Below are positions 28,384-35,567 of a stretch of DNA of 39,364 nt, one piece after another; the first letter of the stretch is position 1, and every line of letters starts with the position of its first letter. Location of the stretch: contig JAHEMO010000006.1 of NCBI GenBank assembly GCA_024643625.1, positions 1 through 39,364 of the forward strand. Reading direction: 5' to 3'. This stretch comes from Chitinophagaceae bacterium (lineage in GTDB: Bacteria; Bacteroidota; Bacteroidia; Chitinophagales; Chitinophagaceae). The notes under the pieces are model-generated. The model did not search any database. It had not been told where the DNA came from and saw only the letters and a list, made by a program, of their open reading frames with translations. The position numbers were made by a program, and so were the translations under genes.

Positions 28384-31300
28384 TTACTGAATCATTATTT
28401 TTTCCGTTCGTAATAGCTTGCCGGTTTTGGCATCCATCAGCCGAACCAAATACATGCCACGGGCATTGCCGGAGATGTCTACAGCAGTTGCACCGTTGGA
28501 AAGCCGTATTTGTTTTATCCGGCGTCCGTTCATATCACTTATATCTGCCATCAGCGCAGTACCATTTACCACTTGTGGCGATACGATGCTAAAGCTGCCT
28601 TTGTTAATGGTAGGGAAAATGCGAACTGCATCAGCCCCGCTGTTTCTTACAATGGCCACAACTTTACTGAATGCGGCGCGGCCATCATTGTCAATCATTT
28701 TTAGCCGATAGTAGAGCTGGGTTAGTCCAGCTACATTATTGTCGGAAAAGCTGAAAACCTCGCGATTGCTGTATCGGGGTAAGCTTACCGTGCCTATTTT
28801 TTCGTAAGGATGATCCAATGCCAGCGTGCGCTCCACTTCAAAGCGATTGAAGTTTTCAATGTTATCAGCAGTCCATTGTAAGGACACGGTTTTGCCGAGA
28901 TCCTTGCCATCAAAATTTACCAGCGTAACCGGTAGCGGCGTTTGATTTACCTGACCCAGGAACATGCCATTGCCATGTGTTACTATCAGCATATTGTTAT
29001 CGCCATGCCGTGCATCAATTCCACGCACCAACGCATTATTTATAACGCCTTGTCCTTCCTTGAACCAGCCAGGGTTGTTGGAGGGTAAAGTGCTGGCGCT
29101 GTTATCGTGCCGGTAGCTGTAAAGGCCAGTGTTAGTACCAACATAATATTCGGTTACTTCCTCAGTATTTTTTTGGTAACTCATCATGGCGCAACTGCGG
29201 GCCGATTGTTCGGTCAGGTTGCCTTCCATGTTTATCCATTGCGGATTATCGGCCTTGGTATTGTTGCAATACCAAATATTTACAATACCATAGTTAGACA
29301 GAACAGCCATTATTTTTTCCGGGTACTTGGGGTGTACGGCAATATCTATCACATATCCCTCGGGCAATTGATTATTGGAAACACGCACCGGGGCAGTCAA
29401 TGAATCATCCCCGGCCGGGTTGTCGACCCGATATACTTCGCCGCGCTGATTACCAAAATACAGCAGGCTTGTGGCCGGGTTATAAGGTCCGTTGGAGGTG
29501 GTTATGCACCTGATGGTTGACCCGCCGCCGGAATTAATAAATCCGACGGATGCTAATTGCCGCCATTCAGCATCGCCATGTGCTGTGGTGGTTGTGCTGG
29601 CGTTGCGGGTGCGCCATATCCGGTTGTCGAGGGCATAATAGAGATGCTCCGGATTACTTCTGTCGGTATGAAAGAGTGTCACAAAAAGAGAAGTGCCGGT
29701 GCTGAATTGAGGCCTGATATTAACTGAGCCGCCAAGGGCTGTTCCGTTAGCCGCTCTTGGCTCGCGGCGGATGGCGCCGTTTTGCGTACCAAATATGTAA
29801 TGTCCGGGTAAAATGCCAACCGAAACACCGTCGCCACCTGTCCCAAAATCAGCAAAGGCTGTAGACCCTGTCAGGCTGTAGGTATTGCCATTGTCCTGCG
29901 CACCACCAATTGCCACGCCGCTACCATTTACCTGCTCTAAAGCACCATAATAGTATTGATAGGTTACAAAGTTGTTGTTCTTTTCTGTCCATTGGTTGCC
30001 AAAAGCAGCGTTGGGCATGTAGGAAAGACCGCCGTCAGTGGCGTTGATCATTTGATTAGGATCAGAAGGATTGAAAGCAAACCAATGTATATCAGGGTGG
30101 TGATTTGGCCATTGGCTATAGCTGGTTGGTGTGGCATAACCCCCAATTCTGCCGATGCTGTTTTTGGTGGCAAAGCCGTCTGCAGAGCGATAAGCATTTG
30201 TGCCGCCTATGTAAACGATATCCGACACCGCCGGATAAACAGCTACTACGAGGTCGTATCCACCCTGAACAGCAAACGGGTCGTTGCCCGAACTGTAACC
30301 CGCTTCATCCGGCAGGTTTGCGCTTCGGTCTTCCCAGGTGCCACCATTGTCGGAATTATTTCTGGTGTATTTGAAAAAATCCGCCTCAGGAACCTGATTG
30401 CCGCTGGAATGCGTGGTGTTGTTGTAATACAGCACATAAAGAATGGTCTGGTCGGAAGGAGCAAGTGCCAAAACCACGCGGCCATATCCGTTATACGTAT
30501 TCCATCCGGTAACCAATGCGCTGTTTGCAATGCGCTCATAACTGCCGGGTGCGCCGGTCGCGGAGGTCCATACTCCATCAAAGGCACTGCTTATGACGTT
30601 GCCGCCAATAGCAGCGTATACGCGGCCGGCATTGGTTACAGCTACATCCGCCGAATAGCCACGCTGTGGAGATTCGTTGGTGATGCCTAATACTGTTTCC
30701 CAGGAAAGGCCCCCATCGGTGCTGCGCACTACACCGCCGCCCACAGCAGCATACACATGGCCGTTGGCCGGGCTTACTGCAAGCTTCATTACAATATCGC
30801 GGGGCGAATCGAAAATAAAATTGTCGGCAGAAAAATTGGACAAGCGCGACCATGTTTGGCCATTGTCTGTGGACTTATAAACCCCATTGCCGGAATAAAA
30901 GGCGCCGGGTAAAACACTGGCTGAGTTACCAAAATTTTCACCGGTACCGTAGTACCAGGTATCCTGAAAGCCAGGGCGGGGATCCTGCACTATGCAGGTA
31001 ACATTATGAATAAAACTGCTTGGTGTTACATTAACCCAGGTATCACCACCATTCGTGCTGCGGAATATGCCGGAACTTACACCCCCGGCCAGCAGCACCT
31101 GATTTTCACCGGTGCCATAGCGGATATCATACTCTACCGCCCTTGAACGGCCACCTTTATTGGTTGGGCCCTTTACCATGTAGGCGTTGGCCTGCAACTG
31201 ATTGATGTTTTGCGATAGTTCGCGCCAGGGTACGCCAATGGATTCCTTGCGTTCCAATTCAAATGCGGTTTCAGGAATTTTGCCTGTGGCCGGGTTTTTC

Positions 31301-31455
31301 ATCAGATCGTATTCGTAGGCCAACCTTTCGCCCACAAACAAGGCACGCTCATTTTCCTCCTCCTCATTGTGGTTTAATGTGTTTTGAGGCCAAAACATCC
31401 ACGCGGCGCCAATTACCGTTGCTGAGAGGCATGAGATCAGTAAAATTTTCTTCAT
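28384..31455 (-). CDS. Secreted BNR/sortilin-like beta-propeller protein with T9SS C-terminal sorting domain
   Basis: A 1023-residue protein with a signal peptide (MKKILLISCLSATVIGAAWMF). Many BNR/Asp-box-like repeats typical of VPS10/sortilin propellers follow, for example FRSTNGGDTWVNV, YKSTDNGQTWSRL and VRSTDGGLSWETV (about residues 60-800). A segment beginning PLPVTLVNFDGK (about residue 840) resembles the beta domain that often precedes sorting tails. The last 80 residues (INKGSFSIVSPQV, ISDMNGRRIKQI, ARGMYLVRLMD, KIMIQ) form a type A T9SS sorting domain. It is exported and probably anchored at the surface; the ligand or substrate is unknown. The ATG at 31455 is preferred to a TTG nine bases upstream. 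Confidence 0.85.
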   Translation of the reverse strand: MKKILLISCLSATVIGAAWMFWPQNTLNHNEEEENERALFVGERLAYEYDLMKNPATGKIPETAFELERKESIGVPWRELSQNINQLQANAYMVKGPTNKGGRSRAVEYDIRYGTGENQVLLAGGVSSGIFRSTNGGDTWVNVTPSSFIHNVTCIVQDPRPGFQDTWYYGTGENFGNSASVLPGAFYSGNGVYKSTDNGQTWSRLSNFSADNFIFDSPRDIVMKLAVSPANGHVYAAVGGGVVRSTDGGLSWETVLGITNESPQRGYSADVAVTNAGRVYAAIGGNVISSAFDGVWTSATGAPGSYERIANSALVTGWNTYNGYGRVVLALAPSDQTILYVLYYNNTTHSSGNQVPEADFFKYTRNNSDNGGTWEDRSANLPDEAGYSSGNDPFAVQGGYDLVVAVYPAVSDIVYIGGTNAYRSADGFATKNSIGRIGGYATPTSYSQWPNHHPDIHWFAFNPSDPNQMINATDGGLSYMPNAAFGNQWTEKNNNFVTYQYYYGALEQVNGSGVAIGGAQDNGNTYSLTGSTAFADFGTGGDGVSVGILPGHYIFGTQNGAIRREPRAANGTALGGSVNIRPQFSTGTSLFVTLFHTDRSNPEHLYYALDNRIWRTRNASTTTTAHGDAEWRQLASVGFINSGGGSTIRCITTSNGPYNPATSLLYFGNQRGEVYRVDNPAGDDSLTAPVRVSNNQLPEGYVIDIAVHPKYPEKIMAVLSNYGIVNIWYCNNTKADNPQWINMEGNLTEQSARSCAMMSYQKNTEEVTEYYVGTNTGLYSYRHDNSASTLPSNNPGWFKEGQGVINNALVRGIDARHGDNNMLIVTHGNGMFLGQVNQTPLPVTLVNFDGKDLGKTVSLQWTADNIENFNRFEVERTLALDHPYEKIGTVSLPRYSNREVFSFSDNNVAGLTQLYYRLKMIDNDGRAAFSKVVAIVRNSGADAVRIFPTINKGSFSIVSPQVVNGTALMADISDMNGRRIKQIRLSNGATAVDISGNARGMYLVRLMDAKTGKLLRTEKIMIQ

Positions 31456-31539
31456 TCTAAGCAATTATTGAAAAAATTAGATACGCATTTTTACGGCATA
31501 GCGTTCCGCCGGGCGGTGAAAATAGCGTTCCATCCCGCG

Positions 31540-32680: not shown

Positions 32681-32802
32681 ATGGCGTTGCGAAGGTTGCG
32701 AAAATACCATGCTGTGCGTAAATGAAGCCATTCGTGTGCGTAGCTCATTTTTTCCACCTTATGCTTTGCCTTTATCTTCGCCGGCATCGCAGCGAAAAAT
32801 TC

Positions 32803-34041
32803 ATGAGCATTTTTATTAGCCAGGTATTAATAGCCGATTCCGCAAGCAGCCATAATGGACAGGTCATAAACATCCGCGTTCATCAGGGTAAGCTCGATTT
32901 TGGTGCCGCACGGGCCGTTGATGGCGATGAAATAATAGACGGCAGCGGTTTGCTGGCCATGCCCGGTTTTGCAGATATTTTTTGCCGCATAGGCGAGCCG
33001 GGACTTGAGCAAAAGGAAACACTGAAAACAGTTACTGCTGCCGCTGTTGCCGGAGGATACACCACCTTAATGATGTTGCCCAACACCCGCCCCGCTATTG
33101 ATACCGCAGCGCAGGTGAGCTTTATTGTAGAAAAATCTAAATCGCTGCCGGTGCAGGTGTTTCCCATGGGCGCCATAAGCACAGGTTGCCGAGGCGAAGA
33201 CCTTGCCGAGATGTACGACATGCATGCCGCCGGGGCTGTTGCATTTTCCGATGGTTTGCATGCGGTGCAAAATGCACAGGTGATGCTAAAAGCCCTGCAA
33301 TATGTAAAAGCGGTGGGGGCCACGGTAATCAGCATGCCGGTGGAAGAAAATCTTACCCGACATGCGCTTATGCACGAAGGCATTGCCAGCACACGCCTTG
33401 GGCTACCGGGTATGCCCGCCATGGCGGAGCATCTTATGCTGCAGCGCGATATTGCATTGCTTGAATACACCAAAAGCCGCTTACATATTACGGGTATCAG
33501 TACTGCAGCATCGGTCCAATTGATAAAGCAGGCAAAAGAAAAGGGCTTGCAGATTACCTGTAGTGTATCGCCCTACCATTTGCACTTTACCGATAGCCAC
33601 TTGGGGGACTACGACAGCGCTTTGAAAGTAAATCCGCCGCTGCGCACCGAAGCCGATGTTGCTGCATTGCGGCAAGCTGTTATAGATGGCACTATAGATT
33701 GTATAGCATCGCACCACCAACCGCAGGATTGGGATGCCAAAACCTGTGAGTTTGAATACGCCGCTTATGGCATGAGTACATTGGAAGTATGCTTCAGTGC
33801 AGTAAAAACTGCCTGCCCAATCCTCAGCCCGGAAAGACTCTCCGAATTATTTACCGCCAATCCGCGAAAAATATTTGGATTACCTGCCGTATCATTATCG
33901 CATCAGGCAATAGCTAATATGGTTTTGGTAGCCCCGGACGAAAAGTATACGTTCACCGCCGACATGATAAAATCATTGGGTAAAAACAATGCGTTTGTTG
34001 GTAAAGAATTGCAGGGAAAAATTCATCAGGTTCTGTTGTAA
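32803..34041 (+). CDS. Dihydroorotase homologue, probably catalytically inactive
   Basis: A 412-residue amidohydrolase-fold protein clearly related to PyrC of the multifunctional-complex type (GGYTTLMMLPNTRPAIDT, KVNPPLRTEADVAALRQAVIDGTIDCIAS). Key catalytic residues are missing. The metal motif DxHxHLREPG reads DIFCRIGEPG (58-67), so both histidines and the substrate arginine are lost. The histidine in H-x-C-H-x-ST is Gly231, and the catalytic aspartate of ATDHAPH is His304 in ASHHQPQ. A non-catalytic partner of aspartate transcarbamoylase, as in Pseudomonas PyrX, is a plausible role, but pyrB is not nearby. The ATG at 32803 fits the family start. Confidence 0.85.
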   Translation: MSIFISQVLIADSASSHNGQVINIRVHQGKLDFGAARAVDGDEIIDGSGLLAMPGFADIFCRIGEPGLEQKETLKTVTAAAVAGGYTTLMMLPNTRPAIDTAAQVSFIVEKSKSLPVQVFPMGAISTGCRGEDLAEMYDMHAAGAVAFSDGLHAVQNAQVMLKALQYVKAVGATVISMPVEENLTRHALMHEGIASTRLGLPGMPAMAEHLMLQRDIALLEYTKSRLHITGISTAASVQLIKQAKEKGLQITCSVSPYHLHFTDSHLGDYDSALKVNPPLRTEADVAALRQAVIDGTIDCIASHHQPQDWDAKTCEFEYAAYGMSTLEVCFSAVKTACPILSPERLSELFTANPRKIFGLPAVSLSHQAIANMVLVAPDEKYTFTADMIKSLGKNNAFVGKELQGKIHQVLL

Positions 34042-34088: not shown

Positions 34089-34610
34089 ATGGACAAGAAA
34101 GTAATGACAGCACAGCAAAAGGGACTGATTATTGGCCTTATCCTGGTATTCTTTTCGGTGTTAACCTATACATTAATTCCCGACATGGAAAAACAGCAAA
34201 AATTTGGCTGGGTATCCCTGGTGCTTATGGTTGCCGGCATAGCCTGGGCCGGTATTAAATATGCTTCCGATATGGGCGGTAACGTTACGTTTGGCAACAT
34301 TTTTGGTCATTCCTTTAAAGCCACGGCGGTAATGACCCTGATTATAATTGCGTATTTTTTATTGGCAGCAACAGTGCTCTTCCCCGAAATGAAGGAAAAA
34401 GCAGCTCAACTGGCCTTTAAACAAATGACAGAGCGGGGCGGCATGACTGATGCGCAAATCAATACAGCCGTAGATATGCAGCAAAAGTATTTTATTCCCT
34501 TTGGTACAGCCGCACAGTTGGCGGGTAGCCTGCTGATAGGGGCTATTGGCGGTCTTATAGGTGCGGCTATTGGAAAGAAGAATCCAAACTATACACCTTT
34601 CCAACAATAA
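34089..34610 (+). CDS. DUF4199 family membrane protein
   Basis: A 173-residue protein with four hydrophobic segments (about 12-30, 40-58, 78-100 and 140-162). The layout MTAQQKGLIIGLILVFFSVLTY, WAGIKYASDMGGNVTFGNIFGHSFKATAV and GGLIGAAIGKKNPN matches the Bacteroidota DUF4199 family, whose function is not known. It is followed after 15 bases by a dolichol-phosphate-mannose-synthase-like glycosyltransferase. I recall this order from other Bacteroidota, so a link to glycolipid synthesis or membrane transfer is possible. Confidence 0.8.
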   Translation: MDKKVMTAQQKGLIIGLILVFFSVLTYTLIPDMEKQQKFGWVSLVLMVAGIAWAGIKYASDMGGNVTFGNIFGHSFKATAVMTLIIIAYFLLAATVLFPEMKEKAAQLAFKQMTERGGMTDAQINTAVDMQQKYFIPFGTAAQLAGSLLIGAIGGLIGAAIGKKNPNYTPFQQ

Positions 34611-34625
34611 GGAGCATACCCCCGC

Positions 34626-35567
34626 ATGGATCTATCCGTAATTGTTCCCTTGCTTAATGAAGCCGAATCGCTGCCGGAATTGGCTGCATGGATAACCCGT
34701 GTGGCAGAAGCTGAAAACTATGCTTTCGAAATAATTTTTATTGATGATGGCAGTAGTGATGATAGTTGGGAAGTCATCACAAGCTTGCGTCAAGCCGACT
34801 CCCGTATTAAGGGCATTCGCTTTCAGCGCAACTATGGTAAAAGCGCAGCCCTAAACGAAGGGTTTAAGGCCGCCGCCGGTAACGTGGTTGTCACCATGGA
34901 TGCCGACCTGCAGGATAGCCCCGATGAAATACCGGAATTGGTACGCATGATACAGGAACAGCGCTACGATTTGGTAAGCGGCTGGAAGAAAAAGCGCTAC
35001 GACAATACTTTTACTAAAAATATTCCTTCTAAATTTTACAATGCTGCTGCACGATCTATTAGCAAAATAAAACTCCACGACTTTAACTGCGGATTAAAAG
35101 CGTATAGCAAACGGGTGGTCAAAGGCATTGAAGTGTATGGCGAAATGCATCGCTATATTCCGGTGATTGCCAAATGGAACGGGTTTAAAAATATTGGAGA
35201 GAAGGTGGTAGAGCACCGCGCCAGAAAATATGGTACAAGCAAATTTGGCTGGGAACGTTTTGTAAATGGCTTTCTCGATTTAATGTCTATAACCTTTGTT
35301 GGGAAATTTGGCAAACGCCCTATGCATTTTTTTGGCCTATGGGGCACAATTGTATTTATCATGGGTTTTGGCATAAGTGCCTACCTTATTGTAAAAAAAA
35401 TGATCAATCCTGCATTTTACCTTACCAGCAAACCCACATTTTATCTGGCGCTGGTGTTGGCTATTATTGGTGTACAGCTTTTTTTAGCCGGCTTTCTGGC
35501 TGAGCTCATTTCGCGAAATTCAGCGGATAGAAACACCTATGGCATTGCAGAAAAAATTGGTTTATAG
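34626..35567 (+). CDS. Polyprenyl-phosphate glycosyltransferase (GtrB/DPM1-like, GT2)
   Basis: A 313-residue GT2 enzyme with DLSVIVPLLNEAESL, FIDDGSSDDS, the metal motif TMDADLQDSPDEIPEL (about residues 90-105) and the HRARKYGTSKFGW loop typical of DPM1/GtrB proteins. Two C-terminal membrane helices (about 238-260 and 272-297) match GtrB. Such enzymes make undecaprenyl-phosphate-linked sugar, which a GT-C enzyme then transfers to a surface glycan outside the membrane. It sits between the DUF4199 gene and a GT-B glycosyltransferase, with short gaps, so these probably form one operon. Confidence 0.88.
   Translation: MDLSVIVPLLNEAESLPELAAWITRVAEAENYAFEIIFIDDGSSDDSWEVITSLRQADSRIKGIRFQRNYGKSAALNEGFKAAAGNVVVTMDADLQDSPDEIPELVRMIQEQRYDLVSGWKKKRYDNTFTKNIPSKFYNAAARSISKIKLHDFNCGLKAYSKRVVKGIEVYGEMHRYIPVIAKWNGFKNIGEKVVEHRARKYGTSKFGWERFVNGFLDLMSITFVGKFGKRPMHFFGLWGTIVFIMGFGISAYLIVKKMINPAFYLTSKPTFYLALVLAIIGVQLFLAGFLAELISRNSADRNTYGIAEKIGL

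Follow-up and report, generated by a model that had tools for sequence, protein, structure and literature searches.

The sequence analysed here (the window) is a stretch of 39,364 nucleotides from a member of the Chitinophagaceae, in the class Bacteroidia. Its plus strand carries, at 32803-34041, an open reading frame of 412 residues without internal stops in the translation, which by frame, profile, residues and structural model encodes a pseudo-dihydroorotase (pDHO, PyrX-like), predicted from the sequence to be non-catalytic. A start at the in-frame ATG at 32722 would lengthen the protein by 27 residues. The start at 32803 is preferred, since the alignment with relatives begins at residue 1 and most of them have Met there, in a comparison biased towards 32803 since the script took the nearest Met. 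Downstream on the same strand lie a gene for a DUF4199 protein (34089-34610, recognised by Pfam) and one for a GT2 glycosyltransferase (34626-35567). Among the named orthologues, which are the best 80 of 577 matches and bear titles mostly of Chitinophagaceae or its genera and some just of Bacteroidetes or Sphingobacteriales, the DUF4199 gene is found in 51 loci at E<=1e-8 and the GT2 gene downstream in all 80. A sequence-only reading had set the gene next to glycan genes and trmD; the glycan part of this neighbourhood recurs, while trmD is a neighbour in one of the 80. A scan of the locus for promoters and terminators gave site numbers close to those in shuffled sequence. On the minus strand, 28384-31464 encodes a large protein that ends in a Por secretion (T9SS) tail and weakly matches a glycosylhydrolase.

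The window protein belongs to the type-I dihydroorotase (DHO) family, with 312 bits against TIGR00857 pyrC_multi (cut-off 279). It scored 303 bits against the NCBIfam dihydroorotase equivalog PRK07627 (NF005791), below the curated cut-off of 442, and a Pfam scan of the protein at 0.001 gave no matches. The top PDB relatives are the Aquifex DHO entries 4bjh (E 7e-68) and 3d6n (E 1e-67), matched over residues 12-407, and the full-length alignment with PyrC proposed earlier is thus borne out. An AlphaFold2 model of the protein has a pLDDT of 90.8, and its best fold match is 3d6n_A, the DHO of the Aquifex aeolicus DHO-ATC complex (class A1) in its form bound to aspartate transcarbamoylase (ATCase), with a TM score of 0.93, which means the same fold.

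Alignment with Aquifex DHO revealed changes at six of seven catalytic-site positions: H61, H63, R65, D153, H180, H232 and D305 correspond to F60, R62, G64, D150, M178, G231 and H304. The motif DIFCRIGEP (residues 58-66; 32974-33000, plus strand, coordinates derived from residue numbers) replaces DxHxHLRxP, so that both zinc-binding His and the Arg are changed; by the alignment, Gly231 (33493-33495, plus strand) stands for His232 and His304 (33712-33714, plus strand) for the catalytic Asp305. These three replacements had been read correctly from the sequence beforehand. The added statement that all key sites are lost was slightly overdrawn, being right for six of the seven positions and wrong for Asp150 (33250-33252, plus strand; Aquifex Asp153), the sole residue kept. 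The catalytic-site positions other than Arg65 were taken from PMC3880350, which describes the zinc ligands of Aquifex DHO and an H180A/H232A mutant that is active. Because that mutant is active, the losses of H61, H63 and D305 are the telling ones; with F60, R62 and H304 in their places, the window protein has neither the HxH zinc ligands nor the catalytic Asp of a catalytic DHO, a clear difference from the zinc-binding, catalytic Aquifex enzyme.

A search of the same genome for a further DHO and for pyrB, which had been suggested with the sequence-only reading, found both. The further DHO (L002) belongs to the PRK09236 dihydroorotase family (655 bits, cut-off 535) and is closest to Porphyromonas gingivalis 2gwn. 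It is encoded at 1180-2511 of its locus, minus strand, and is presumed to be the working dihydroorotase. Its motif DDQVHF, which it shares with 2gwn, has Gln where the first zinc His would stand. The PyrB (L003, 307 aa) lies on a contig other than the window's and begins at the profile start. TIGR00240, the profile for pyrI, was unmatched in 39 genomes including the window's own (an assembly 90.4% complete, in 394 contigs), and in the control search 7 of 14 genomes matched, E. coli among them. The genome thus holds, within that assembly completeness, a second DHO and a pyrB but no pyrI match, as expected of an organism with a class A2 partner subunit, and the window gene is a type-I DHO homologue in an intact frame that lacks zinc and substrate residues, Asp150 excepted. 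It does not lie beside pyrB, a feature that is usual rather than defining, as taken from four Pseudomonadota records. We also considered whether PyrB alone would assign the complex to class A or class C: it scored best against 2at2 (210 bits), presumably the Bacillus subtilis ATCase of class C, and 186 bits against the Aquifex protein, which did not discriminate the two.

PyrI is the bridging regulatory subunit of class B ATCase and is unrelated to DHO in fold and sequence; in the partner-subunit reading, pDHO would be its counterpart as the bridge. In a survey of 197 genomes of the class (homologue profile E<=1e-60, pyrB 1e-60, pyrI E<=1e-10), a DHO-type homologue was found in 171, pyrB in 189 and pyrI in nine, from four families, eight of them over the curated cut-off and one (G471) under it. 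The pDHO-like homologue was present in 168 of the 180 genomes with pyrB and without pyrI (one of the 168, G108, has an intact DHO), in none of the nine with both pyrB and pyrI, and in three of the eight without pyrB. The significance of these counts (Fisher p 4e-10 and 2e-4) is inflated by relatedness; by family, counted by hand, the figures are 51 of 54 against 0 of 4 with pyrI (p 8e-5, rising to 9e-5 when the family of G108 is left out), again inflated by relatedness. In the class sample, the presence of pDHO follows the native PyrB and excludes PyrI.

Exceptions occur on both sides. In twelve class genomes pyrB occurs while neither pyrI nor pDHO was matched, and seven of these belong to one genus. 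Two of the twelve are special cases: G352 has a very divergent pDHO behind a BatA-like gene, and G402 has a PyrB of another lineage, so that about ten remain, seven from the one genus. A pDHO but no pyrB match was seen in G353, G442 and G448, and in G033 of a smaller survey, and assembly gaps are a possible cause. In that smaller survey, whose single-protein query underscored G026, pyrB was found without a close pDHO in G003, G029, G032 and G036. A relative of 99% completeness, G034, has neither a pyrB nor a DHO match at E<=0.001 and is perhaps a pyrimidine auxotroph. Weak pyrI matches in two pDHO genomes (G066, G224) were under the cut-off and had stops inside, and were not counted. In a sister class, G232 carries pyrI with an adjoining pyrB together with a type-I DHO match (7.9e-125).

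In a tree of 69 PyrBs, the 40 of the pDHO group fall on one side of a branch (94/95), where the group label was set by locus and at least three of the 40 (G003, G029, G032) come from genomes without a close pDHO. These PyrBs lie with the sister-class PyrBs that adjoin an intact DHO. Behind a 100/100 branch are the PyrBs of eight pyrI genomes, that of G402 and a second PyrB of G445, a genome that has both PyrB lineages and keeps its pDHO. The PyrB of G108 lies outside the pDHO group on a long branch; its gene is beside the intact DHO (L195), the pair is apparently foreign, and a near-identical DHO (L319) adjoins pyrB on a plasmid of Hymenobacter volaticus. In G402, G108, G202 and G034, which have lost PyrB or carry one from a different lineage, the pDHO is gone. 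In G202, of the same genus as G108, neither a DHO homologue nor pyrB was matched at E<=1e-60.

The sister classes present the corresponding intact state. All seven residues are kept in 25 of 27 sister-class DHO loci (the exceptions are L197 and L201), and at 16 of these loci, selected for side-by-side DHO and pyrB matches, the DHO follows pyrB with seven of seven residues. At L197 (G039) a dead DHO (YFGDSNS at the seven positions) has an ATG that overlaps the pyrB stop by four bases. Dead homologues also occur in Pseudomonadota: that of Sinorhizobium meliloti (L314, RFGNGES) has an annotated overlap with pyrB, and the DHO homologues in the Shinella, Azospirillum and Acinetobacter records lack both zinc His and lie behind pyrB, that of Azospirillum keeping the other Asp and His residues. 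Disruption of smc01361 in S. meliloti is described in PMC5929573 as causing pyrimidine auxotrophy, and its authors proposed a PyrX; L314 and smc01361 are presumed to be the same gene in different strains. The S. meliloti protein is, like the window protein, a dead DHO; it is about 33% identical to the window protein and changed at all seven positions. It differs in that its gene overlaps pyrB, whereas the window gene and pyrB are on separate contigs. Both DHO trees were quick ones without bootstrap: the first groups 98 in-class rows (SH-aLRT 94) with L195 outside, the second groups 25 in-class rows at 91, with a support of 17 for the group including Rufibacter, and L197 and L201, both dead and from sister classes, change place between them. 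A single origin of the Bacteroidia pDHO and the Pseudomonadota PyrX was also considered; the best tree sets S. meliloti PyrX apart from the Bacteroidia clade, and one clade was not rejected (p-AU 0.56).

PMC7053772, which cites Schurr 1995 on Pseudomonas PyrX/PyrC', states that in the class A2 ATCase of Pseudomonas the pDHO is a dimer without catalytic activity and that ATCase activity depends on it. The window genome resembles that case in having a type-I DHO homologue that lacks the catalytic residues together with a second DHO presumed to work, and differs in that its PyrB is without the 11-residue N-terminal extension described there. The comparison with Pseudomonas PyrX is one of descriptions, the sequences compared being rhizobial and Acinetobacter ones, and it concerns genes alone on the Bacteroidia side. 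Taken together, the co-occurrence with pyrB, the joint loss, the PyrB tree and the sister-class dead DHO overlapping pyrB agree with the PyrX-like role raised by the sequence-only reading, and the window protein is probably a non-catalytic partner subunit of PyrB in a class A2 ATCase, as in Pseudomonas. The physical complex, its stoichiometry, its effect on ATCase and the history are what we infer. In the proposed architecture, which is that of Aquifex and has a parallel in Pseudomonas, two PyrB trimers would be joined by pDHO dimers into a dodecamer, and pDHO would stabilise or activate PyrB; dihydroorotate would be made by the second dihydroorotase, of the PRK09236 family. A class A1 complex of PyrB and active DHO likely existed in the phylum; in Bacteroidia the second DHO would have taken over catalysis, the active site decaying piecemeal under continued selection on the fold.

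At the emptied site, Phe60 is found in 79 of the 80 named orthologues (one has Leu, none His), His304 in 79 (one has Phe, none Asp), Asp150 in all 80 and Gly231 in 71. Given this strong conservation, the site might have been refitted in close relatives as an effector pocket, pDHO then being a regulatory ATCase subunit that arose from a dead enzyme and does the job of PyrI. Such a role would explain why pDHO and PyrI never occur together in the 197 class genomes; we consider it unlikely.

An inactive DHO as ATCase partner is of a known kind, represented by Pseudomonas PyrX, to which the window group would add members. We found no report of an inactive DHO from Bacteroidetes in the openly available literature searched, which is not proof of absence. 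The label dihydroorotase is probably misleading for the window gene. If the partner-subunit reading is true, most Bacteroidia would have an ATCase of class A2, and many of the class's genes labelled dihydroorotase, for example that of Rufibacter, would be non-enzymes whose label misleads target lists and metabolic models. Within the clade, active-site loss in the dead subunit has gone to many different stages, and there are natural replacements, either PyrI with its own PyrB or the apparently foreign pyrB-DHO pair. With these stages and replacements, comparing lineages becomes a way to test why an inactive DHO is retained on ATCase.

The stages themselves bear on whether the altered site might still be catalytic, perhaps without metal, as a dihydroorotase or another amidohydrolase. 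A Pseudomonas PyrC paralogue without the conserved zinc ligands is reported to be active in PMC2770081, and the replacements at positions 60, 150, 231 and 304 are themselves conserved in the named orthologues. Residues were read in 101 of the 171 class genomes with a homologue. At least one of the H61, H63 and D305 equivalents is missing in 98 of them, and all three are kept in L098, L158 and L195; L195 is also the sole case with seven of seven. L098 (G366) and L158 (G362) are nested in the pDHO group with both zinc His and the catalytic Asp, and judging from the residues they are possibly still active or at a late stage of loss. The retained zinc core of these two would favour an enzyme. Against it, the other 100 class genomes keep zero to five of the seven residues in many combinations, so that no replacement set is constant across the class, and the window's genome has its own PRK09236 dihydroorotase. 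A catalytic function of the window protein seems to us quite improbable.

The gene neighbourhood offers a different kind of alternative, namely that pDHO serves an envelope cluster (BatA-like, DUF4199, GT2), for instance as a scaffold, and that its link with pyrB is incidental. Dead DHOs of the class often lie with envelope genes, either a BatA-like gene or DUF4199-GT2, and none was beside pyrB in the loci read, which speaks against the subunit reading; in the class loci, read with flanks of at most 1.5 kb (5 kb in the named set), G108 alone has a DHO beside pyrB, and that DHO is intact. Besides the named loci, GT2 is downstream in seven of eight order loci (L026-L033) and in nine other class loci with short flanks. 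A home-made profile placed a gene for a BatA-like membrane protein directly upstream, in the same orientation, in 83 of 101 class loci and three of eight order loci; one full-length protein (L306, 1157-3277) was confirmed to carry the BatA domain PF07584. On a 12.5-kb circular plasmid of Rufibacter tibetensis (L318), BatA-like, pDHO, two DUF4199, GT2 and another glycosyltransferase genes follow one another in a row. Neither neighbour is constant, however. The BatA-like gene was not found upstream in any of the 69 named loci that could be scored, nor in 29 of the 30 loci in the window-family set, and outside the window's family Pfam found nine DUF4199 and three GT2 among 93 downstream neighbours scanned of 179 listed. 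Furthermore, across the class sample pDHO occurs along with pyrB and never with pyrI, and G352 has its BatA-like gene still beside a pDHO that has diverged strongly. The conserved neighbours could reflect an envelope role or merely a stable neighbourhood, and we hold the former, as a replacement for the partner-subunit reading, to be very unlikely.

That the gene is the decaying remnant of a dihydroorotase that was displaced, a pseudogene, as the changed catalytic residues, the second DHO and the stops flagged within the match in eight class-survey rows (also in G368 and G493) could suggest, is hardly credible and was rejected, since the eight flagged rows still have open frames of 413-445 aa, an uninterrupted frame over at least 400 of 421 profile positions is found in 97 of 101 class genomes and all 80 named loci, dN/dS is low and most non-catalytic columns are conserved. 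The dN/dS values, which show purifying selection among relatives, were 0.037-0.194 across 30 close pairs, the most similar of 135; the window gene is in none of these pairs, and some of them have a row in common or draw on one genome repeatedly. The frames ran from stop to stop, so that non-homologous upstream codons can raise dN. Two such stop-to-stop frames, L133 (748 aa) and L156 (681 aa), were considered as pDHO-PyrB fusions and set aside, as by eye the extra residues looked like a non-coding upstream frame. A retained non-catalytic role rather than decay, as first proposed from the sequence, is well supported by the class-wide conservation, the low dN/dS and the pattern of column loss. 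Twenty-five intact DHOs share 69 invariant columns, and the median of these columns is kept in 86% of 181 non-redundant pDHOs, a set taken from 225 loci in which the window's family weighs more heavily. Seventeen of the 69 are kept in fewer than 35% of these pDHOs: six are catalytic (60, 62, 64, 178, 231 and 304), four lie within two residues of a catalytic position (65, 151, 152 and 306), and seven are not near one in sequence (92, 254, 258, 260, 276, 308 and 312).
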